Assembly: GCA_021325525.1 (NCBI GenBank)
Contig: JAJPHB010000061.1
Span: 1-64,000 of the forward strand
DNA: 64,000 nt
Source: Alphaproteobacteria bacterium
Lineage (GTDB): Bacteria > Pseudomonadota > Alphaproteobacteria > ATCC43930 > CGMCC-115725
Direction: 5' to 3'
Shown: positions 14,611 to 25,359 of the stretch, piece by piece
How the letters are laid out: every line of letters begins with the position of its first letter
How positions within the stretch are numbered: position 1 is the first letter of the stretch
Made by a program: the position numbers and the translations under genes
Notes under the pieces: model-generated
Seen by the model: only the letters and a program-made list of their open reading frames with translations
Told to the model about the DNA's origin: nothing
The model's database searches: none

Positions 14611-17160
14611 ATGGGTCTCGAACAATATCGGCGCAAACGCGACTTCACCAAGACGCCTGAACCATCCGGCCGCGCGGCCAACGAGGAGCCGCGGCGCGAT
14701 GGCGCCCTCAGCTTCGTCATCCAGAAGCATGCGGCGCGGCGGCTCCATTACGATTTCCGCCTCGAACTGGGCGGCGTTCTCAAAAGCTGGGCGATCCCGA
14801 AAGGCCCGAGCCTCGATCCCGGCGAGAAGCGGCTTGCCGTTCATGTCGAGGATCATCCGCTGGAATATGGCGGCTTCGAAGGCGTCATCCCGGAAGGCCA
14901 ATATGGCGGCGGCACGGTATTGTTGTGGGACCGCGGCCGATGGATCCCGGAGGATCCCGATCCGGCTTCGGCCTATGAGAAAGGGCATTTGAAGTTCCGC
15001 CTTGCCGGCAAGAAGCTGACGGGCGGCTGGGCACTGGTCCGGATGGGCGGCCGAGCGGCGCGGGAAGGACGGGACAATTGGCTCCTCATCAAGGAGCGCG
15101 ATGCTGCGGCGCGGCCCGACAGCGGCGATGCGATCACCGAGGAGAGGCCTGAGAGCGTCGAGACGGGGCGCGACATGGGCGCGATCGCCCGCGACGCCGA
15201 TCGCGTCTGGGACTCCGCGGCCGGCGAAATCACGCCGCCGAGGCCGGCGCTCGCCATGCGCGACATTCCGCACGCGGCGCCCGGCCCTCTGCCGCGCCGG
15301 ATCGCACCGCAACTGGCCACGGCGGCGACGAAGCCGCCCGTAGGCGAGGATTGGCTGCACGAGATCAAATTCGACGGCTATCGCATCCTGGCCCGCCTCG
15401 ATAGCGGGGCAGTGCGCCTTTTCAGCCGCAACGGCTTGGACTGGACGGCGCGCTTTCCCGAGATTGCCGCGGCCTTGGTCGCGCTGCCGGCGCGACAGGC
15501 CTTGCTCGACGGCGAGGCGGTGGCGCTCGACGAGGATGGGCGCTCGAGCTTTTCCGCTCTGCAGCGCGCCCTCTCCGAGGGCAAAACCGCACCCCTCGTC
15601 TATTTCGCCTTCGATCTTCTCTACCTCGACGGATACGACCTTCGCGACGCCGCAATCGAAGCACGCAAGGACGCGCTCGCCGTGCTGATCGAGAAGGGAG
15701 GCGAACCCAATCTCCGCTACAGCGACCATCAAGAGGGCCGCGGCGGCGAGTTCTTCGAGCATGCCTGCCAATTCTCGCTCGAAGGCATTCTCTCCAAGCG
15801 CCGCGGCGAGCCTTATCGCGCCGGCCGCTCGCGCAGCTGGCTCAAGGTCAAGTGCGGGACGCGCCAGGAATTCGTCATCATCGGCTTCACCGATCCGAAG
15901 GGCGGGCGCGCGGGTTTCGGCGCCTTGGTGCTCGGCTACTACGATGACGGCGGGACGCTGCGCTATGCCGGCCGCGCCGGCACGGGCTACGATGAGAAGA
16001 TATTGACCGCGCTTCGACGGCGCCTCGACCGCCTCGTCATCGACAAGCGTCCCGTCGAGACGCTGCCGAAAGGCAGCACGACCCGCGATATCCATTGGGT
16101 GCGGCCGACGCTCGTCGCCGAGTTCCGCTTCGCCGAATGGACGCGCGACGAGGTGCTGCGCCACGCCGTCTTCCTTGGGCTGCGCGAGGACAAGCCGGCG
16201 CGCGAGGTCCGCCGCGACCCTGCGTCCTCGGCGGCTTCCGCCGCATCGCCGCCGCGCCGCGCCAAGGCGGCGACCGCGATCGCCGGCATTCGCCTCACCA
16301 ACCCGGCGAAAGTGCTCTACCCCGAGGACGGGATCACAAAGAGCGAGATCGCCGCCTATTACGAGCAGGTCGCGCGCCATGCCCTGCCGCACCTGACGAA
16401 CCGGCCGCTCGCCATCCTGCGGTGCCCCGAAGGGCGCGCCGCGGAGTGTTTCTTCCAGAAGCATGTGAGCGCGGGCATGCCCGCCTCGATCCATCATATC
16501 GAGATCGCCGAAGAAAAGCGGCGCGAGACCGCTCTCTATATCGCCGACCTCGCCGGGCTCGCCGCCCTGGTGCAGCTCGGCGTGCTCGAAATCCACCCCT
16601 GGGGATCGACGGTGCGGCGGATCGAGCATCCGGACCGGCTCACCTTCGATCTCGATCCCGGCGAGGGCGTCGCCTGGGACGCGATGATCGAAGCCGCCTT
16701 CGCCGTCAGGACCGCCCTCGATGCGCTCGGCCTTCAAAGCTTTGTCAAGACCACCGGCGGCAAGGGGCTTCACGTCGTCGTGCCGATCGCGCCGCGCCTT
16801 GCCTGGCCGGAGGCCAAGGCCTTCGCCAAGGCCGTCGCCGAGGCGCTCGTCGCCGCAGCGCCGGAACGCTATACGGCGACGCTGTCGAAACGGGCGCGCG
16901 GCGGCCGCATCTTCATCGACTATCTCCGCAACGGGCGCGGCGCCACCGCGATCGGCGCTTTCTCGACCCGCGCCCGCGCCCATGCGACGGTCTCCGTTCC
17001 GCTATCCTGGAAGGAAGTGGAGAGCGGCGTGCGCAGCGATCAGTTCACGATCCGTGACCTGCCGCAGCGCCTTGCCGATCTGCGATCCGATCCCTGGGAG
17101 GGATTCTTCGCTCTGAAGCAGAGCGTCAGCGCCGCGGCGCGCCGGGCGCTGCACCTCTGA
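14611..17160 (+). CDS. ligD: ATP-dependent DNA ligase LigD (phosphoesterase-ligase-polymerase)
   Basis: Multifunctional enzyme of bacterial non-homologous end joining. Domains in order over 849 residues: 3'-phosphoesterase (about 8-175, with HAARRLHYDFRLEL and GEYGGG-like GQYGGGTV), ATP-dependent ligase (about 220-535, catalytic K253 in EIKFDGYR, then EGILSKR and SWLKVKC) and the primase-like polymerase (about 555-845, TNPAKVLYPEDGITK, FDLDPGEG near 677-684 as the metal site, TTGGKGLHV). This domain order (PE-Lig-Pol) is one of several known. The ku gene is convergent, 18 bp away. It diverges from the response regulator gene. Confidence 0.96.
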   Translation: MGLEQYRRKRDFTKTPEPSGRAANEEPRRDGALSFVIQKHAARRLHYDFRLELGGVLKSWAIPKGPSLDPGEKRLAVHVEDHPLEYGGFEGVIPEGQYGGGTVLLWDRGRWIPEDPDPASAYEKGHLKFRLAGKKLTGGWALVRMGGRAAREGRDNWLLIKERDAAARPDSGDAITEERPESVETGRDMGAIARDADRVWDSAAGEITPPRPALAMRDIPHAAPGPLPRRIAPQLATAATKPPVGEDWLHEIKFDGYRILARLDSGAVRLFSRNGLDWTARFPEIAAALVALPARQALLDGEAVALDEDGRSSFSALQRALSEGKTAPLVYFAFDLLYLDGYDLRDAAIEARKDALAVLIEKGGEPNLRYSDHQEGRGGEFFEHACQFSLEGILSKRRGEPYRAGRSRSWLKVKCGTRQEFVIIGFTDPKGGRAGFGALVLGYYDDGGTLRYAGRAGTGYDEKILTALRRRLDRLVIDKRPVETLPKGSTTRDIHWVRPTLVAEFRFAEWTRDEVLRHAVFLGLREDKPAREVRRDPASSAASAASPPRRAKAATAIAGIRLTNPAKVLYPEDGITKSEIAAYYEQVARHALPHLTNRPLAILRCPEGRAAECFFQKHVSAGMPASIHHIEIAEEKRRETALYIADLAGLAALVQLGVLEIHPWGSTVRRIEHPDRLTFDLDPGEGVAWDAMIEAAFAVRTALDALGLQSFVKTTGGKGLHVVVPIAPRLAWPEAKAFAKAVAEALVAAAPERYTATLSKRARGGRIFIDYLRNGRGATAIGAFSTRARAHATVSVPLSWKEVESGVRSDQFTIRDLPQRLADLRSDPWEGFFALKQSVSAAARRALHL

Positions 17161-17178: not shown

Positions 17179-18027
17179 TCAGTCCCCGCCCGGCGCCTTC
17201 GCGCTCCCGCCTTTGCTCGAGCTCGGCCTCCCGCCGCCGCGGGGCGGCGAGCGGCGCTCGACATCGAGGCTCCGCTTCAGCGCCGCCATCAGGTCAATCA
17301 CGGGCGCGGGTTCGCGCTGCTGCGTCGCGACCACATCGCCCGCTTCCTTCGCCGCGATGAGGCGGCGCAGAGCCGTCTGGTAGCGGTCTTCGAGTCGGCT
17401 CGGATCGAAATGCCCCGATTTCCGCTCGATGATGCGGGTGGCGAGCTCGACCATGTCCTCATCGACGGGCTCGTCCCTGATCTCCTCGAAGTAGGGCGCC
17501 GCATCGCGGACCTCCGCGGCCGCGCGCAGCGTCGTCAGCAGCAGCCCGTCCGGGCGCGCTTCGACGGCGACGAGCCGCTCGCGGCCGCCCAGCACGACCC
17601 GGCCCAGCGCCGCCTTTCGCCGGCGCAGCATCGCCTCGCGGATGACGGCGAAGGTCTCCGCGCCGACCGCCCCGTCCGGCGACAGGCGGTAGGGCGCATC
17701 GAGATAGAGCGGGTCGATCTCCTCGCGATCGAAGAAGCGCTCGAGCTCGATGGTGCGGGACGATTCGATGCGAAGCGCGGCGAGCTCCTCGTCCTCGACG
17801 ACAACCAACTTCCCTTCCGCGCTCTCGAAACCGCGGACGAGCCGGTCCCGCGGCACCGCCTCGCCGCTCTCGGCATCATGAGGCCACATCTCGATCCGGT
17901 TGTGCGTCGCCCGGTCGAGCCGGTGGAACGAGACCCGATTGGCCCGCGTCGTCGCCGGGGTGAGGCGGACGGGGCAAGAGACGAGCGACAGTTTGAGATA
18001 GCCGCTCCAGCCGGTCTGTCGGGGCAT
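17179..18027 (-). CDS. ku: Ku DNA end-binding protein (first copy)
   Basis: Homodimeric ring that binds double-strand break ends and recruits LigD. 282 residues; recognisable from GYLKLSLVSCPVRL at the N-terminus, the RGFESAEGKLVVVEDEEL segment, and IIERKSGHFDPSRLEDRYQ near residue 215. The C-terminal 30 residues are Ser/Gly/Lys-rich and probably disordered. GGGAGG lies 9 bases before the ATG. It faces ligD tail to tail, a common pairing. A second Ku gene is at 33.5 kb; the two are clearly paralogous rather than identical. Confidence 0.95.
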   Translation of the reverse strand: MPRQTGWSGYLKLSLVSCPVRLTPATTRANRVSFHRLDRATHNRIEMWPHDAESGEAVPRDRLVRGFESAEGKLVVVEDEELAALRIESSRTIELERFFDREEIDPLYLDAPYRLSPDGAVGAETFAVIREAMLRRRKAALGRVVLGGRERLVAVEARPDGLLLTTLRAAAEVRDAAPYFEEIRDEPVDEDMVELATRIIERKSGHFDPSRLEDRYQTALRRLIAAKEAGDVVATQQREPAPVIDLMAALKRSLDVERRSPPRGGGRPSSSKGGSAKAPGGD

Positions 18028-18319: not shown

Positions 18320-18387
18320 TTACAGGCGGGGGTCAGTCGTTGGGGCACCACGCCGCTAAGCCTTTGAAATAGCGGCATCCGAACAGT

Positions 18388-18403
18388 TGGCACGCGATAT
18401 GCA
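18388..18403 (+). promoter_or_regulatory. Sigma-54 (-24/-12) promoter for the PEP-CTERM gene
   Basis: The sequence TGGCACGCGATATGCA matches the RpoN consensus TGGCACG-N4-TTGCA with the invariant GG and GC at the exact spacing; only one base of the -12 block differs (A for T). Expected transcription start is about 18414, giving a leader of about 45 bases before the ATG at 18459. An in-frame TTG at 18387 lies inside this element and so is not the translation start. Confidence 0.75.
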
Positions 18404-18458
18404 AGAGATTGGGCGAATGCTGGCAACGATGGCTTTGCCGATCAGAGAGGATGGAAAG

Positions 18459-19283
18459 ATGGTTTCACTACAGAACAGGCTGATGGCCGTCGCGGCCGGC
18501 TTGATGATCGCGGGGGCCGCGAGCAGCGCCTTCGCCAATCCCACCTTTACCGTGAACGAGAGCGGAGCCGCCGGCGTGGCGCCGGCCGGATGCAGCATTT
18601 TTCCGAGCCTGTGCTTCTCGACGTTCCAGGCCAACCAGATGGGCCTCAACTACCTGTCGAATGTCGCGCTGAACACGGGTAACGGGACTTTCAGCGAAAG
18701 CGGCTCGTTGAACATCACCTCGTTCCTCAACGGCAACCCCGAGATCACCGTCTCTGGAACGCACATCAACAGCACCTACTCGCTGCTGGCGAACTTCAAT
18801 GGCGCTGGCACCTTCACCGGCAATGGCAGCCCGTCCTTCACCGGCACGTTCACCAGCTTCAGCTTTACGCTGTTCCTGGCACCGACGAGCCAGCTCAGCG
18901 CACTCGATGCGAACAAGCAATACACCATCGCCTCGCCGGACATCGTGGTCGCGACCGGCGGCCAGAACGGGCCGGGGCAAGCGCATATCTTCCCCAGCAG
19001 CCCGGCCCAGGGCGATTTCCACGTGTTCAACTCTTTCCTGATCACGCCGGACGGAAAGAATTTCTTCACGCAGCCGGTCGACTTCTACGTGGCCTTTGAC
19101 GCGAGCGGCAACAACAACTCGACCAGCTGCACGCCGGGCGGGGAGAACTTGCTCAATTGCGCCCTCGAAGGCGGCGGCAAGGCTCAGTTCCTCGTTCCCG
19201 AGCCCGGAACGCTGGCGCTGCTCGGCGGTTCGATCCTCGGCCTCGGCTTGATCAGCCGGCGCCGTCGGAAGCTCGCCGCCTGA
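18459..19283 (+). CDS. PEP-CTERM sorting-domain protein
   Basis: A 274-residue exported protein processed by the exosortase system. Signal peptide in residues 1-26 (AVAAGLMIAGAASSAFA). The body is Asn/Ser/Thr/Gly-rich and has few charges, as usual in this class, with three cysteine-containing loops. The C-terminus carries the sorting signal: VPEPG at 246-250, hydrophobic helix TLALLGGSILGLGLIS, then basic RRRRK. Such proteins are exported, cleaved near the PEP motif, and are linked to exopolysaccharide and floc formation. No exosortase gene is in the window. The start ATG follows GAGAGG and GGAAAG. It is driven by a sigma-54-like promoter and converges on the ThiF-nitroreductase operon. Confidence 0.9.
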   Translation: MVSLQNRLMAVAAGLMIAGAASSAFANPTFTVNESGAAGVAPAGCSIFPSLCFSTFQANQMGLNYLSNVALNTGNGTFSESGSLNITSFLNGNPEITVSGTHINSTYSLLANFNGAGTFTGNGSPSFTGTFTSFSFTLFLAPTSQLSALDANKQYTIASPDIVVATGGQNGPGQAHIFPSSPAQGDFHVFNSFLITPDGKNFFTQPVDFYVAFDASGNNNSTSCTPGGENLLNCALEGGGKAQFLVPEPGTLALLGGSILGLGLISRRRRKLAA

Positions 19284-19371: not shown

Positions 19372-21387
19372 CTATCTCGGCCGGAGGAGCACCGAGAGCT
19401 CCTCGCGGACCGATCGCGCGCGGAGCCGGCGAGACCGCGGCTCGCCGAGCCTGCCTCTGAAGACGATGTCCTCGCCGCGTCCTTGCGCCTCCGCATCGAG
19501 GAGCGCCGCCAGACGCGCTGATTTGGCGAGGATCGCGCGATCGGTCGTGAACGGGATGCCGTAGCGGCTGAAATGCGCGAACCAGAGCGGCGCAAAGCTC
19601 GGCTGCATGACAAGACCCAACCGCGTCGCCACAAGCCAAAACCGCTGCAAGGCCTGGCCGGCCGCCAGCAAGCTGCGGATGCGGTCGCCGTCCGCCGGCC
19701 GACATTGTCGCAGGATGGTGAAATGCGCCGCACAGCAGAGCCCGGGAAGCACATCCATCTCCAGAAGCGCCAATCGCGTGCCGCCGATCCGGTTCATGAA
19801 ATCCATGCGGCGCCAATCGCGCATGACCCAGCGCATGAGGCGGCGGGTGGCCGGATCAAGCGCGAGAGAACGGACGGGAAGGCCGCGAGGCGCGAAATCG
19901 TGCTGCCAATCCAGGATCTCGCAGTGGATGTCGTAGGCTTGGCGGAGACGCAGCCGAATGTCGGCGCCGCGGGCGCTAATTCGCGTTGCCTGCCAGCGCC
20001 CGGCTGCCCCCTCGTGCCACAGGACGGCCAGATCATCGCCAAGCGCCGCTTCGAGCGCGGCCTTCTGCTCCGCTGTCAGGGCCGTCCGCTTATAGGATCG
20101 GCGATCGACTGAGCGAACCTGGATGAAGGGCGCGAGCGGATCCTCGACAATCCGCGGATCGCGCGGCAGATGGACAGCGATCCGATGCACGCCGCCAGTC
20201 TCGCCGAGATGGCGCCAGCGGCATCCTCGGCCGCGCGTCGAAGCGGCGATCCGCATGGTTTCGAGAAGAATGCCAGCCGCGAGCAGCGTCGGCTCGCCAT
20301 CCTTGTAGTCGAACAGGTCGAGTTTTGCTTTGACGTGGGCGGTGAGATCATCCTCGCCCTGGATCTCGAAGCGCCAGGGCTGGGTGTTGTCGCCGCTCGG
20401 CGCCCAGCGCGCCTGGCCGAGGATGTAGTCCAAATCGCTCGCCGCCCGCGGTGCGGGCGGCACCGCGTCGCGCGAGAATTTCTCGCTCAGACGGTAGCCG
20501 AAGGCCAGTTTCAGCCGCTGGAGCGGGTTCGCGTTGCCGCCGGGCAGCCAGCCGCGCACCCATTTGCAGCGATAGGCATCGAACTGATGATACCAAGGCG
20601 CCGCGCGGACGGTTCCGCGCTTCAGCACGATCTTCAGCACTTCGGCCGCGGCGACGCCGGCGCAAAGCTCGCAGGAGAGCCCCGTCGAGGGGCCGCGCTT
20701 TCCCTTCAGATCGATGCGCGAGGCATCCACGAGATAGCGGCGCTGAAAGCCGCGCGGCGTCAGCCCCAGGGCGAAGTTGACGCGCTGCTTCTCTGGCGGA
20801 AGCCCCGACAGTCGAAAATAGCGCTCGAAGCTCATGCCGCCGGGCATGAAGACGAGGTATCCCGTCCCCATCCCGATCGGCGCCGCGATAATGGCGGGAA
20901 TGCCCAGCGCGTCCAGCCGGGCAAAAAGCTTCAACCGCAGATCGAGCTCGAAGAAATCGAGGGAGTCGACATAGCAATCGACGCCGGCGAGGAACGCATC
21001 GAGATTGCTCTCGTCGATCCCATGCGGAAACACCTCGAGCTCGAGCTCGGGATTGATGTCGCGCGCCATCTCGGCGAGGACCGTCGCCTTGGGCCGGCCG
21101 ATCGTCGACATCATTGCGCCGGCCTGGCGATTGAAGTTGGCGAGCTCGAAACAGTCGAAATCGGCGATGCGGAAGGCGCCGATCCCGAGGCGCGTCAGGG
21201 TCAGGAGATGCGAGCCGCCGACGCCGCCGAGCCCCGCGATGGCGATGCGCTTGCGGCGAAGAATCTGCTGCTCGGCCGCCGTGACCCAGCCGAGATTGCG
21301 GCTGAATGCTTCCTCGTAAGAGAAGCGGACAGCCTCGTCGCTACCCTCGCCCTCGATTGGCGCCAGGTTTTCGATCCGCCCGTCCAC
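19372..21387 (-). CDS. ThiF (E1-like) adenylyltransferase-nitroreductase fusion protein
   Basis: A 671-residue two-domain enzyme resembling, by architecture, the Rv1355c/MoeY type. The N-terminal E1-like domain (about 20-300) has the ATP loop GLGGVGG (52-58), DFDCFELANFNRQ (76-88) and a single CxxC (C239, C242). It can be expected to adenylate a carboxylate. The C-terminal domain (about 325-600) is nitroreductase-like and FMN-dependent: ARWAPSGDNTQPWRF near 336-350. The start is GTG with GAGG five bases upstream, seven bases after the stop of the HlyD-type gene, so it is the last gene of a five-gene operon. Substrate unknown; adenylation plus flavin oxidation of the acyltransferase product is the working idea. 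Confidence 0.85.
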   Translation of the reverse strand: MDGRIENLAPIEGEGSDEAVRFSYEEAFSRNLGWVTAAEQQILRRKRIAIAGLGGVGGSHLLTLTRLGIGAFRIADFDCFELANFNRQAGAMMSTIGRPKATVLAEMARDINPELELEVFPHGIDESNLDAFLAGVDCYVDSLDFFELDLRLKLFARLDALGIPAIIAAPIGMGTGYLVFMPGGMSFERYFRLSGLPPEKQRVNFALGLTPRGFQRRYLVDASRIDLKGKRGPSTGLSCELCAGVAAAEVLKIVLKRGTVRAAPWYHQFDAYRCKWVRGWLPGGNANPLQRLKLAFGYRLSEKFSRDAVPPAPRAASDLDYILGQARWAPSGDNTQPWRFEIQGEDDLTAHVKAKLDLFDYKDGEPTLLAAGILLETMRIAASTRGRGCRWRHLGETGGVHRIAVHLPRDPRIVEDPLAPFIQVRSVDRRSYKRTALTAEQKAALEAALGDDLAVLWHEGAAGRWQATRISARGADIRLRLRQAYDIHCEILDWQHDFAPRGLPVRSLALDPATRRLMRWVMRDWRRMDFMNRIGGTRLALLEMDVLPGLCCAAHFTILRQCRPADGDRIRSLLAAGQALQRFWLVATRLGLVMQPSFAPLWFAHFSRYGIPFTTDRAILAKSARLAALLDAEAQGRGEDIVFRGRLGEPRSRRLRARSVREELSVLLRPR

Positions 21388-21394
21388 CGCCGCC

Positions 21395-22480
21395 TCAGCG
21401 CGTTGCGATCTGGCGTGCCGTTTGGGAGCCGCTGCTCGAGACTTGCGGGGCGGTCATGAAGGCGTTGACGCGCAGCCCCGAAGGCAGGCGGCGCCCGTCA
21501 TCGAGAGCGATCAGCACCTGCAGAACCTTGGTGTCGGTCCGCTCCTTCGCCTCGTCGGTGCGGATGCTCTTCTTGCCGAGCATGTGCCCGATGCGGACGA
21601 CATGGCCCGGGAAGCGCTCCTCCCCGAACGCCTCGGCGGTGACATAGGCGGGCATCCCGAGCGTGAGCTTGGCGATATCGGCCTCATCGACATCGGCGCG
21701 CACGAAGAGATGCGACATGTCGCCCACCGTCAGCACCGTCGGATCGAGGAAGACCGAGATCACCTCGCCGACGCGGCGGTTGACGCGCAGCACCGTGCCG
21801 TCGATGGGGCTGCGGATCACCGCCTGGTCGAGATCGGCCTGCGCCCGGTCGCGCTCGGCCTTGGCGGCGGCGACCTGAGCCTCGGCGATGGCGATGTCCT
21901 CCTCGCGCGCGGGGTCGTTGACGAGGAGGAAATGCTGCCGCGCGGCCTCGCGCTTCTGCTGGGCGACCGCGTATTCGCGTTCGGCGAGGTCGGCAGCCTC
22001 GCGCGAGACGTAGCCTTGCTTGACGAGCGCGCGCCGGCGTTCGAGCTCGATGCCGGCGGTCTTGAGCACCGCCTCGGCCTGCTGCAAGCCCGCCTTCGCC
22101 TCGTCGCGCTCCTGCGGCCGGGCGCCGTTCAGCGCGCGCCGCAGCTCGGCTTCGCGCAATTGCAGCGTCGCCTCCGCCTTGGCGAGAGTGGCGCGAAACG
22201 GGTCGGTGTCGAGCCGCGCCACGACCTCGCCGCGCTTGACGGTATCGCCCTCCTTGACCAGCACCTCTTTGAGGAGGCCCGTCAACGGCGCGCCAACGGC
22301 GATCTCCTCCGAGGCCGGCTCGACCTTCCCGGGCGCGGCGACGGTGTATCCGCCGTCGATGAGAGGCGTGATCGCGGCCGGTGCGGCCGGCGCTGGCGCC
22401 GAATCCGAGCGGCCCTCGGTGACCAGCAGCAGGGCGCCGAGCGAGGTGGTGACGAGGAGGAGGAGATAGTGGAGCTTCAT
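21395..22480 (-). CDS. DevB-type periplasmic adaptor (HlyD family)
   Basis: Membrane-fusion protein of an ABC exporter, 361 residues. N-terminal membrane anchor (LHYLLLLVTTSLGALLLV), then the split biotinyl-lipoyl domain (GYTVAAPGKVEPASEEIAVG and AVIRSPIDGTVLRVNRRVGE), with a long alpha-helical hairpin of about 120 residues between (coiled-coil, rich in Ala/Glu/Arg), and a beta-barrel part. It starts inside the stop of the ATPase gene (ATGA overlap). With the downstream DevA and DevC type genes it should reach an outer-membrane TolC-like channel, not encoded here. In heterocystous cyanobacteria DevBCA exports glycolipid. Confidence 0.88.
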   Translation of the reverse strand: MKLHYLLLLVTTSLGALLLVTEGRSDSAPAPAAPAAITPLIDGGYTVAAPGKVEPASEEIAVGAPLTGLLKEVLVKEGDTVKRGEVVARLDTDPFRATLAKAEATLQLREAELRRALNGARPQERDEAKAGLQQAEAVLKTAGIELERRRALVKQGYVSREAADLAEREYAVAQQKREAARQHFLLVNDPAREEDIAIAEAQVAAAKAERDRAQADLDQAVIRSPIDGTVLRVNRRVGEVISVFLDPTVLTVGDMSHLFVRADVDEADIAKLTLGMPAYVTAEAFGEERFPGHVVRIGHMLGKKSIRTDEAKERTDTKVLQVLIALDDGRRLPSGLRVNAFMTAPQVSSSGSQTARQIATR

Positions 22481-23292
22481 GACGCCACCAGTTCCTTGAG
22501 GTCGGTCTCGCGGCTCCGCCGCCGGCGGAGCAACGAGGCATCGAGCGGGGCAGCGGGAGCCGATTCGCGCGGGAGCGCAATGTCGCGGATGATTCTGCCG
22601 TCTTCGAGCGTGACGACGCGGTCGGCGAGATCGAGGATCCGGCTGTCATGCGTCACGACGACGACGCCGCGGTGAAGACGGTGCGCCAGATCGGCGAACA
22701 GCATCATGATCCGCCGCCCGGTCTGCAGATCGAGCGCGGCGGTAGGCTCGTCGGCGAGAATGAGGCTGGGCTCGCCGGCAAGCGCCCGGGCAATCGCGAC
22801 GCGCTGCTTCTGCCCGCCGCTCAGATCGGCGGGATAGGCGTCGCCCTTGTCGCCGAGCCCCACCTGCTCCAGCAATTCGTCGGCCCGGCGCCGCCGCGCG
22901 CGGCCGCCGAGCCCTTTCAGATCGAGGGCCAGCTCGACATTCTGCCGGGCCGACAGCGTCGGGAAGAGGTTGTAGCCCTGGAAGATGAAGCCGATATGGG
23001 CAAGCCGGAGGGCGCTGCGCGCCGCCTCGTTCTCCTCGGCGACCTCCTGCCCGAGCAGGCGCACCTCCCCGGCCGTCGGGCGGAGAATGCAGCCGATGAT
23101 CGACAGCAGCGTCGTCTTGCCGCTGCCGGATGGGCCCATCAGGATCGTCACCTCGCCGGCGGCGATATCGAGATCGATCGCGGCAAGCGCGCGGAGCGCC
23201 GTTTTCCCGGCGCCATAGGTCTTGCCGACGCCGCGCAGCGAGACGACGGGTCCCGGCGGCACGATCTCGAGCGATGATCGCGCGGATGTCAT
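22477..23292 (-). CDS. DevA-type ABC transporter ATP-binding protein
   Basis: 271-residue exporter ATPase. Walker A GPSGSGKTT (53-61), Q-loop in FIFQGYN, signature LSGGQ (157-161), Walker B LILADEP (177-183) and switch H205. The short Walker-proximal insert and MacB/LolD-like length place it in the DevA group. The ATG at 23290-23292 overlaps the permease stop by four bases (ATGA), fixing the start; earlier in-frame codons only re-read the permease gene. The last residues overlap the adaptor start the same way, so the three exporter genes are translationally coupled. Confidence 0.93.
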   Translation of the reverse strand: MTSARSSLEIVPPGPVVSLRGVGKTYGAGKTALRALAAIDLDIAAGEVTILMGPSGSGKTTLLSIIGCILRPTAGEVRLLGQEVAEENEAARSALRLAHIGFIFQGYNLFPTLSARQNVELALDLKGLGGRARRRRADELLEQVGLGDKGDAYPADLSGGQKQRVAIARALAGEPSLILADEPTAALDLQTGRRIMMLFADLAHRLHRGVVVVTHDSRILDLADRVVTLEDGRIIRDIALPRESAPAAPLDASLLRRRRSRETDLKELVAS

Positions 23293-24452
23293 TTGAACAC
23301 CATTGCCGGATCGAGCCGCGTCACCTTGCGGATCGAGATCGCAGCGGCGCCGACGCACATGACGAGCGTAAGGGCGAGGAGCCCGGCGGCGAGCTCTCCC
23401 GGCAGGAGGATCGCCGTGCCGCCATTCCGTGAGGCGCGAATGATGGCGAGCGTGACGCCGAGGCCAATGCCATAGCCAGCGAGCGCGCTCAACACGGCCT
23501 GGCGGATGATGACTCCATAGAGATAGCGGCTCGACGCGCCGATCGCGCGCAGCGTGCCGAATTCGGGCAAATGATCGATCGTCGTCGCATAGAGCGTCTG
23601 GCTGACGACGACGACGCCGACCGCGAGCCCCATCAGCGCCGCGACGAGGAGCGCCAGCCCAGCGCCGGTCGTGAACATCCAATAGAATTGCGTGCGCCGG
23701 CTGAACTCGCCGCTGGTCAGGACCTCGACATCGCCGAGGCGTTCGGAGAGGGCCTTGCGCATGGCTGCGGCATCGGCCCCCGGCACGAGCCGGCAGAGCA
23801 CGTATTTGGTCTGGTCGCTGCGAATGCGCGAATAGTCGAGCGCGCTCGCGAAGGAGGCGAAGACATAGGGCGACTGCGTGAAGGAGCGAATGCCGCGCGT
23901 GAAGCCGACCACCTGGGCGCGGCGGCCGCCGATCTCGACGATCTGCCCGATACGGGTGACACCCAGCTTCTCGCGATAAAGCTCGTCGATCATGACCGTG
24001 CCGGCATAGGCGAGGTTCTTGACGTCGCCCTCCGCCACCTGCCAGGGCGCGCCCAGCCCTTGCGCCGGATCGAAGCCGACGACGATCACGGTCTCGTTGC
24101 CGCCATCCGGCCGCTTGAACAAGGTGAATTCGGTAATGAGCTTCGCGGCCTCTTGAATGCCCGGCACCGCCAAGGCCTGGAAGAGCTTCCGCTCGGAAAT
24201 CGCCGCGCTCTGATCGATGTTGCGCGTGCCGGGCGCCATGATCCAAAGATCGGCGCCGGCATGGTCGATGAGGCTCGACGTCGTGCGTGCGAAGCCGATG
24301 AACAAGCCGAGCTGCACGCCGATGAGGACGACGGCGAACACGATGCCGATCAAGGTGACGACAAGGCGCACGCGGTCGTGCACCATGTTCCGCACCGCGA
24401 GGACGGTGCTCATCCGCGGAAATCGGGCGATCGCTGCAGTGATGCTGGACAT
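23289..24452 (-). CDS. DevC-type ABC transporter permease
   Basis: 387-residue permease of the MacB/DevC type. First membrane segment about residues 28-52 (RLVVTLIGIVFAVVLIGVQL), then a periplasmic MacB-like domain of about 210 residues (SFTQSPYVFAS, RSDQTKYVLCRL), then three C-terminal segments of the FtsX-like domain (ending AISIRKVTRLDPAMVF, typical of DevC). Substrate not predictable from sequence; cyanobacterial DevC moves glycolipid with DevB and TolC. AAGG lies 8 bases upstream of the ATG. It follows the acyltransferase gene by 94 bp and overlaps the ATPase gene by four bases. Confidence 0.92.
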   Translation of the reverse strand: MSSITAAIARFPRMSTVLAVRNMVHDRVRLVVTLIGIVFAVVLIGVQLGLFIGFARTTSSLIDHAGADLWIMAPGTRNIDQSAAISERKLFQALAVPGIQEAAKLITEFTLFKRPDGGNETVIVVGFDPAQGLGAPWQVAEGDVKNLAYAGTVMIDELYREKLGVTRIGQIVEIGGRRAQVVGFTRGIRSFTQSPYVFASFASALDYSRIRSDQTKYVLCRLVPGADAAAMRKALSERLGDVEVLTSGEFSRRTQFYWMFTTGAGLALLVAALMGLAVGVVVVSQTLYATTIDHLPEFGTLRAIGASSRYLYGVIIRQAVLSALAGYGIGLGVTLAIIRASRNGGTAILLPGELAAGLLALTLVMCVGAAAISIRKVTRLDPAMVFK

Positions 24453-24546
24453 AGGAAGACCTTGCTCACCGCTCTGATAGCCGACTGCCCGCTAAGAAAC
24501 CCTTAGTTTCCCTACCCTTAACAGATTCGCCTGGATTTCGCACACC

Positions 24547-25359
24547 TTATCCGACGAGCTCGCGCGCTCGCGTACACAGCGTGGCGGGACTCGCGACCCA
24601 AGCCGGCGACCAGTTCCGGCCGCAATCGGTAATCACTTCCCAGACGTCGCGGCGCTCCGCCTCGACATTGGCGAGCAACTCGTCGATCTCGGCGTAGCAG
24701 GGTTGGCGGAGCCCGTGATATTCGAGCATCGGTCCGATCGGCGTGAAGCGGATGCCGAAGCGCCGCAGCAACCGGAGCAGCGCCGGCTCCATGATGGCGC
24801 AGACATGGTCGATGCCGTGGTCGCGCGCGAGCTGCAAGGCGACGGCCATCAAGCCCAAGGTGATGTGCGGGATGGCGCGACGATGGTCACCCGACAGCTC
24901 GTCCGGATCATAAGCCTTGCCGTAGAGCTCGTCGCCGACCCGACGACGGAACTGCTTCGATACGGCAAAGCGCGAGAATTCCGCCGTGCTGTCCGGCGGC
25001 AGGATGCGCATGGCCCGCGGGCAGACCTCGTACAGCGGAAGACGCCCCGATACGGGACCAAGTCGCGGCAGGACGAGGCGTGTCGTCCCGACGACGGCTC
25101 GGCTCGTCCGGTGCACGAGAAGAGCATGCCGCGAGTGCCGGTCGTGCTGATCGGTCTCTAAGCCACCGGGATTGTCGGCCACGTCGAGAAAGGAGTTCTC
25201 GACGCAATAAACCTGGTAGCGCAGCCGGAAAGCGGCGTTCAATAACTCGGGAGTGTCGGCTGGGATCGCCTCGAACATCTTGCGGTAGATTTCTACCAGA
25301 GGCGCCGAGCGATCGGCAACCGGTTCCGATAGCTTCCTGCGATCGTCTGGTTGGGACAA
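24547..25359 (-). CDS. PEP-CTERM/exosortase system-associated acyltransferase (FeeM-like)
   Basis: 270-residue GNAT-fold protein of the TIGR03694/FeeM type, related in fold to LuxI autoinducer synthases; known relatives from environmental DNA make long-chain N-acyl amino acids from acyl-ACP. Seen: AAFRLRYQVYCVENSF (42-57, the acyl-carrier binding start), VGTTRLVLP (90-98), AEFSRFAVS (126-134), and a conserved C-terminal part from RRFGIRF to YHGLRQPCYAEID. The start is given as TTG at 25357-25359 with GGGGG eight bases upstream; no ATG sits near and the N-terminus is therefore uncertain. First gene of the export/ThiF-nitroreductase operon. Confidence 0.88.
   Translation of the reverse strand: MSQPDDRRKLSEPVADRSAPLVEIYRKMFEAIPADTPELLNAAFRLRYQVYCVENSFLDVADNPGGLETDQHDRHSRHALLVHRTSRAVVGTTRLVLPRLGPVSGRLPLYEVCPRAMRILPPDSTAEFSRFAVSKQFRRRVGDELYGKAYDPDELSGDHRRAIPHITLGLMAVALQLARDHGIDHVCAIMEPALLRLLRRFGIRFTPIGPMLEYHGLRQPCYAEIDELLANVEAERRDVWEVITDCGRNWSPAWVASPATLCTRARELVG

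Follow-up and report, generated by a model that had tools for sequence, protein, structure and literature searches.

On the minus strand of a 64,000-nucleotide stretch of an alphaproteobacterial genome (contig JAJPHB010000061.1 of assembly GCA_021325525.1, positions 1 to 64,000; the whole stretch is hereafter called the window), we found an operon that joins a PEP-CTERM/exosortase-associated N-acyltransferase, a three-part ATP-binding cassette (ABC) exporter and a fusion of a ThiF (E1-like) domain with a nitroreductase-type flavin oxidase. It is fairly probable that this operon synthesises and exports an acyl-oxazolone-type lipo-amino acid for the PEP-CTERM/exosortase surface; a dehydro-N-acyl amino acid lipid would be an alternative product within the same reading. 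Gene identity, predicted folds, conservation of catalytic residues, gene linkage and exporter substitution are the observations presented here. The enzymes are a further set of the acyl-oxazolone type, which is the ordinary part of the finding, and the available parts of earlier reports already associate N-acyl amino acid synthases with PEP-CTERM genes (Craig 2011, cited in PMC11072679; PMC7293339). As far as the literature shows, the exporter inside the operon and the recurring exporter substitution are new, as are the tie of ThiF and oxidase genes to exosortase and PEP-CTERM genes and the matching arrangement in a second phylum. The genes are arranged as follows in the window.

24547..25359, minus strand: N-acyltransferase, PEP-CTERM/exosortase-associated, FeeM/LuxI fold (TIGR03694; PF21926 FeeM, 50.5 vs. 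27)
24453..24546, minus strand: gap between the acyltransferase and devC-like genes, 94 bp, terminator-like site absent
23289..24452, minus strand: DevC-like ABC permease (MacB_PCD and FtsX; PF12704/PF02687; TIGR01185)
22477..23292, minus strand: DevA-like ABC ATPase (TIGR02982; ATG at 23292)
21395..22480, minus strand: DevB/HlyD-type membrane fusion protein, the adaptor (TIGR02971)
19372..21387, minus strand: ThiF (E1-like)-flavin oxidase (nitroreductase) fusion (NF006077, 430 bits vs. 266)
18387..19283, plus strand: PEP-CTERM protein, floc_PepA family (NF033554; PF07589)

The five minus-strand genes named in a first-pass annotation of this DNA were all recovered in place by profile scans. 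Its description of the junctions as 4-base overlaps or a 7-base gap held for devC/devA (overlap at 23289-23292), devA/devB (overlap at 22477-22480) and the devB-type and fusion genes (7 bases, 21388-21394), but the acyltransferase stop is separated from the devC start by 94 bases. A search of this interval found neither a terminator nor a promoter, and co-transcription of the acyltransferase gene with the rest is plausible from this layout.

Relatives of the ThiF domain (E <= 1e-30) were sought in 398 genomes sampled evenly from the phylum. Only 16 genomes, belonging to 12 genera and therefore not all independent cases, possess one. In all 16, counting the window's own, a TIGR03694 or FeeM-type acyltransferase lies within about 4.2 kb of ThiF, while, given the acyltransferase copy number, chance alone would bring the two within 10 kb with a probability of about 0.7% per genome. 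The neighbourhood linkage on which the first-pass annotation had staked its proposal is thus conserved beyond chance. Six of these 16 genomes have a nitroreductase that is fused to ThiF or encoded close to it. Among 80 further named loci, picked by similarity to the ThiF domain, 73 have a flavin oxidase fused to ThiF or within 4 kb of it and 48 an acyltransferase within 10 kb. The acyltransferase gene stands upstream or downstream of ThiF and on either strand; the linkage therefore outlasts rearrangement. In several loci, a second, canonical FeeM-type acyltransferase replaces or accompanies the TIGR03694 enzyme near ThiF (L097:13160-13933, PF21926, 166 bits; L100, L116, L165 and others).

The arrangement extends to another phylum. 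Plasmid pDEVAL01 of Nitratidesulfovibrio vulgaris RCH1 encodes a single FeeM-ThiF-nitroreductase protein of 989 aa (L193:4062-7031), with three PEP-CTERM genes and a gene for an XrtA glycosyltransferase beside it; this protein matches PRK14852 and is still annotated as a hypothetical protein. Closer to the window, a genome from another family of the same class (G608) shows the window's layout, from the acyltransferase to the ThiF-nitroreductase gene with a convergent PEP-CTERM gene, but carries a tetratricopeptide repeat (TPR) protein instead of DevCAB. The latter (939 aa, PrsT-like, L053:7445-10264) is encoded between the acyltransferase and ThiF-nitroreductase genes. Within the window's own family (39 genomes), no close orthologue of the fusion with an exporter was found, and only two distant ThiF relatives were detected.

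The PEP-CTERM gene of the window is convergent with the operon, 88 bases from the fusion gene. Its product scores 144.6 bits against a cut-off of 80 for floc_PepA and passes PF07589 marginally (21.2 vs. 20.7). The same genome contains about a dozen PEP-CTERM genes above the Pfam cut-off and, on another contig (C4), an exosortase A locus (XrtA, 263 vs. 208 bits; XrtA amidotransferase, 958 vs. 817). The XrtA frame (L195:9324-10661) follows an in-frame TGA and matches the model from position 45 on; this may reflect a truncation, an alternative start or a sequencing error. In the phylum sample, an exosortase is present in 14 of the 16 ThiF genomes compared with 72 of 398 overall (hypergeometric 1e-9, kinship not corrected), and in 23 of the 31 genomes with an over-cut-off TIGR03694 protein. 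PEP-CTERM genes near ThiF were called by our own motif rule, with distance bins within the loci and a family search of the genome as background; up to 3 kb from ThiF their density is about 0.10 per kb, at 4-6 kb it is 0.01, and none lies at 6-8 kb. The earlier suggestion of a role in surface or floc biology is therefore backed, as regards the PEP-CTERM/exosortase surface, by linkage in many genomes, and the product would serve that surface. PepA takes part in floc formation in Aquincola (PMC9850573). In Methylomonas LW13, according to the available part of the report, disruption of ExoAT abolishes a distinct polysaccharide band that complementation restores (PMC11072679).

The acyltransferase clearly passes its curated family cut-off (TIGR03694, 259 vs. 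111.95 bits). Its AlphaFold2 model (predicted local distance difference test, pLDDT, 84.8) resembles FeeM (2g0b; Z 17.5, root-mean-square deviation 3.3, 175 residues aligned) and the N-acyl-homoserine lactone synthase TofI (Z 18.6). Across 34 acyltransferase sequences, six residues are invariant (R47, E68, D73, R94, E127, R130) and a seventh, D70, is conserved in at least 90%; we take these acidic and arginine residues to be the LuxI-family signature. Structure modelling, named in the first-pass annotation as a possible refutation, thus did not refute its proposal, the model having the LuxI/FeeM fold with these residues. The enzyme is predicted to catalyse an OxzA-like step, the N-acylation of an amino acid.

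The model of the fusion (pLDDT 83.5) consists of two halves, a ThiF fold (residues 29-287) and an Acg-like nitroreductase fold (316-671). The former matches AclA (9egb; Z 26.2), ThiF (1zud; 25.4), MoeB (25.0) and MccB (23.0), and no paper identifying AclA, the top match, was found. The best match of the latter is Acg (2ymv; Z 27.7, 293 residues aligned), the structure that served as template for the oxidase half in the study of TrzS (PMC12856293). In the ThiF-family alignment, G52, G54-G57, D76, D78, N84, N86, R87, Q88, K100, D141 and R151 are invariant, including the adenylation motif. No cysteine is invariant across this alignment, C242 being invariant in fused members only. Adenylation without thioester transfer is therefore likely for this half, as judged from the alignment, and a standard E1 transthiolation role (ubiquitin-type, with a thioester cysteine) was rejected. 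The fusion shares 24% identity with a Rhodococcus TrzS-family protein, in which R542 aligns with its R478 and D212 with its D144, the residue numbering differing between species. The published tests of TrzS concerned D217 (cyclase) and R540 (oxidase) (PMC12856293); a correspondence between R478 and TrzS R540, drawn through the Rhodococcus protein with this species-dependent numbering, is suggestive. The fusion is thus predicted, from its modelled folds, to be an OxzB/TrzS-like oxazolone synthase.

The first-pass annotation had left the chemistry of the operon unnamed, although its enzyme set matches published acyl-oxazolone pathways. In the available parts of these reports, Tyr, Phe or Trp is acylated by OxzA/OxzB in Pseudoalteromonas rubra and by two systems, TyzA/B/C and TrzA/TrzS, in Mycobacterium tuberculosis (PMC10404671, PMC12856293). 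ThiF then cyclises the acylated amino acid with ATP and the flavin oxidase desaturates it with O2 (PMC10404671, PMC12856293). OxzA/OxzB (de Rond 2021, as described in PMC10404671), compared here from that description, also pair an N-acyltransferase of LuxI/FeeM-type fold with a ThiF-nitroreductase fusion (PMC10404671); the operon differs in that its acyltransferase belongs to TIGR03694 and in that neither an exporter nor a PEP-CTERM link is mentioned for OxzA/OxzB in the available text of the papers citing it (PMC10404671). TyzACB and TrzAS share the acyltransferase, the ThiF cyclase and the Acg-like flavin oxidase, TrzS being also a fusion, whereas in TyzACB the ThiF and flavin oxidase proteins are separate, MmpL9 is found near tyz, and both systems are without a dedicated ABC exporter and PEP-CTERM (PMC10404671, PMC12856293). 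The PEP-CTERM-associated synthases such as ExoAT of Methylomonas LW13 are of the same acyltransferase class and genomic setting, but ThiF, flavin oxidase or exporter partners are not discussed in the available part of the source (PMC11072679). In the papers searched, we found no published use of ThiF, nitroreductase, acyltransferase and exosortase jointly, no account of an exporter within an acyltransferase/ThiF-oxidase operon and no paper combining oxazolone lipids with PEP-CTERM, the sole match concerning methanobactin-like clusters. No nitroreductase appears in the account of E1-like operons by Iyer (2006).

Since N-acylation, cyclisation and oxidation are known from these homologous systems, the same kind of product may be expected here. 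The TIGR03694/FeeM-fold enzyme would N-acylate an amino acid, probably aromatic, from acyl carrier protein or coenzyme A thioesters (acyl-ACP or acyl-CoA). The N-acyl amino acid would then be closed into a ring and oxidised to an oxazolone-type lipid, the Acg-like flavin mononucleotide (FMN) domain carrying out an O2-dependent desaturation of the amino acid side chain to yield a tyrazolone-type compound or, after hydrolysis, a dehydro-N-acyl amino acid. The DevBCA-type tripartite pump would carry this product as far as the outer membrane or out of the cell, probably via a TolC encoded elsewhere, and it would serve the exosortase/PEP-CTERM/exopolysaccharide surface, the recurrent setting of the homologous loci. 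The make-modify-export pathway proposed earlier is supported in this respect by the conserved linkage in many genomes.

The exporter also departs from that first description, which had drawn an analogy with the DevBCA glycolipid pump. The DevB-type adaptor passes its cut-off marginally (TIGR02971, 131.1 vs. 129 bits); the DevC-like permease (TIGR01185, 159.4 bits) falls under the DevC equivalog cut-off of 290.35 and the DevA-like ATPase (TIGR02982, 250.6 bits) under the subfamily cut-off of 295.8, and for this reason the pump is only DevBCA-like. It shares the three-part architecture of the heterocyst glycolipid exporter, but no glycolipid gene, of the heterocyst type or another, was seen in the operon, and its predicted cargo is a lipo-amino acid. 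In view of the cut-offs and the lack of glycolipid genes, the glycolipid analogy is wrong or too strong. TolC-type outer membrane channel domains, the component that a DevBCA-type pump would need, are present in the window's genome.

DevCAB trios adjoin ThiF again in three Methylomonas loci. Elsewhere, LolCE-like permeases occur within 10 kb of ThiF (20 of the 80 named loci), in many cases accompanied by LolD-like ATPase, LolA-like and DUF1302 proteins, and in several Rhodocyclales a LolCE-like permease pair lies between the acyltransferase and ThiF genes. Two exporter types joined to one enzyme set are what an export step would give, and the recurrent Lol-type set looks like a dedicated lipid export route in PEP-CTERM bacteria. 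This set, recorded around ThiF and the acyltransferase at L097, L101, L114, L118, L154, L157, L160 and L161, comprises a LolD-like ATPase, a pair of LolCE-like permeases and proteins of LolA-like and DUF1302 type. The window DevC is closest (52% identity) to those of G379 and G611, in loci without acyltransferase or ThiF, and shares 37% identity with the Methylomonas DevC, with moderate tree support for the separation (81/89). The two DevCAB-ThiF associations therefore look, on this tree, like independent recruitments. A single DevBCA lineage that always travels with ThiF is not supported.

Several points weigh against oxazolone synthesis and export as the function of the operon. The oxidase half is not universal: 10 of the 16 ThiF genomes of the sample showed no nitroreductase near ThiF. 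The main exception to the linkage concerns Oxalobacteraceae loci with ThiF and oxidase, most of which have no recognised acyltransferase within 10 kb. Only gene position points to an oxazolone-type lipid as the exporter's cargo, DevC and DevA are under the DevBCA model cut-offs, and the 94-bp gap leaves a single transcript unproven. LolCE-like genes are often part of larger exopolysaccharide loci and their link to oxazolone-type chemistry may be indirect. In M. tuberculosis-type systems, oxazolones are mostly retained in cells (PMC10404671, PMC12856293). Finally, the product and its amino acid are predictions.

It is possible, though rather unlikely, that the final product is instead a secreted dehydro-N-acyl amino acid of the stieleriacine, thalassotalic acid or kyonggic acid type with a biosurfactant or antimicrobial function, the oxazolone being a transient intermediate and PEP-CTERM reflecting a shared biofilm niche. 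In Massilia, Thalassotalea and Stieleria, N-acyl dehydrotyrosines are accompanied by clusters that also combine an N-acyl amino acid synthase, ThiF and a nitroreductase, and no oxazolone was observed according to the available part of the source (PMC12479983), which reports no ABC exporter in the pathway, in contrast to our operon. The Stieleria maiorica cluster holds a PEP-CTERM gene (PMC7293339). A Massilia locus of our set (L116) carries FeeM-ThiF-nitroreductase, in line with such a product. However, the statistical tie of ThiF to PEP-CTERM genes and exosortase is more than a niche effect need give. Also unlikely is a pump that is only co-regulated with its neighbours and carries another cargo (a glycolipid, a drug or an exopolysaccharide-related lipid): the nearest DevC relatives (G379, G611) fit this idea, but the three pump genes are tightly packed between the acyltransferase and fusion genes, DevCAB recurs beside ThiF in Methylomonas and another type of ABC permease occupies a similar place elsewhere.

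Modification of a protein or peptide by the fusion, for instance at the C-terminus of a PEP-CTERM protein, instead of a small N-acyl amino acid, appears highly improbable. E1-like enzymes do often adenylate protein C-termini (ThiS, MoaD, MccA) and PEP-CTERM genes are nearby; yet no ubiquitin-like partner was noticed, no cysteine is invariant family-wide (C242 only in the fused set), the acyltransferase partner is universal in the sample, and TyzB and TrzS, which are homologues, take N-acyl amino acids as substrates for cyclisation (PMC10404671, PMC12856293).

Oxazolone-type chemistry was discovered recently, and the partnership, retained by relatives in many bacteria, suggests where these little-understood lipids act. 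What they do physiologically has been described as a major unresolved question (PMC12856293); exosortases, for their part, have been suggested to leave a new moiety on PEP-CTERM proteins (PMC11980579). That synthesis of the oxazolone type, ABC export and PEP-CTERM genes are conserved as one unit directs attention to the Gram-negative surface and brings both questions within reach of experiment. As a speculation, the two could be connected by an electrophilic oxazolone that reaches the surface. Because an azlactone is an electrophile opened by amines and other nucleophiles, an exported oxazolone might even serve as a surface lipidating reagent, transferring its N-acyl amino acid onto exosortase-processed PEP-CTERM proteins or exopolysaccharide amino sugars. 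We consider this very unlikely; if true, it would provide exosortase sorting with its attached moiety and oxazolones with a function.

The Oxalobacteraceae loci in which no acyltransferase was recognised nearby (L113:9956-15538, L098, L103, L112, L124, L134 and L139) encode, besides ThiF and oxidase, a PEP-CTERM protein together with an EryCIII/MGT-type glycosyltransferase; this suggests that the variant there is glycosylated or that its acyltransferase is a distant one. In the window, the base composition of the operon region is ordinary, and a horizontal gene transfer island, judged by GC, was rejected. By reading of translations, LigD-like (14611-17160, plus strand) and Ku-like (17179-18027, minus strand) genes adjoin the PEP-CTERM gene, and MobA/FdhD-like genes lie on the opposite flank of the operon.

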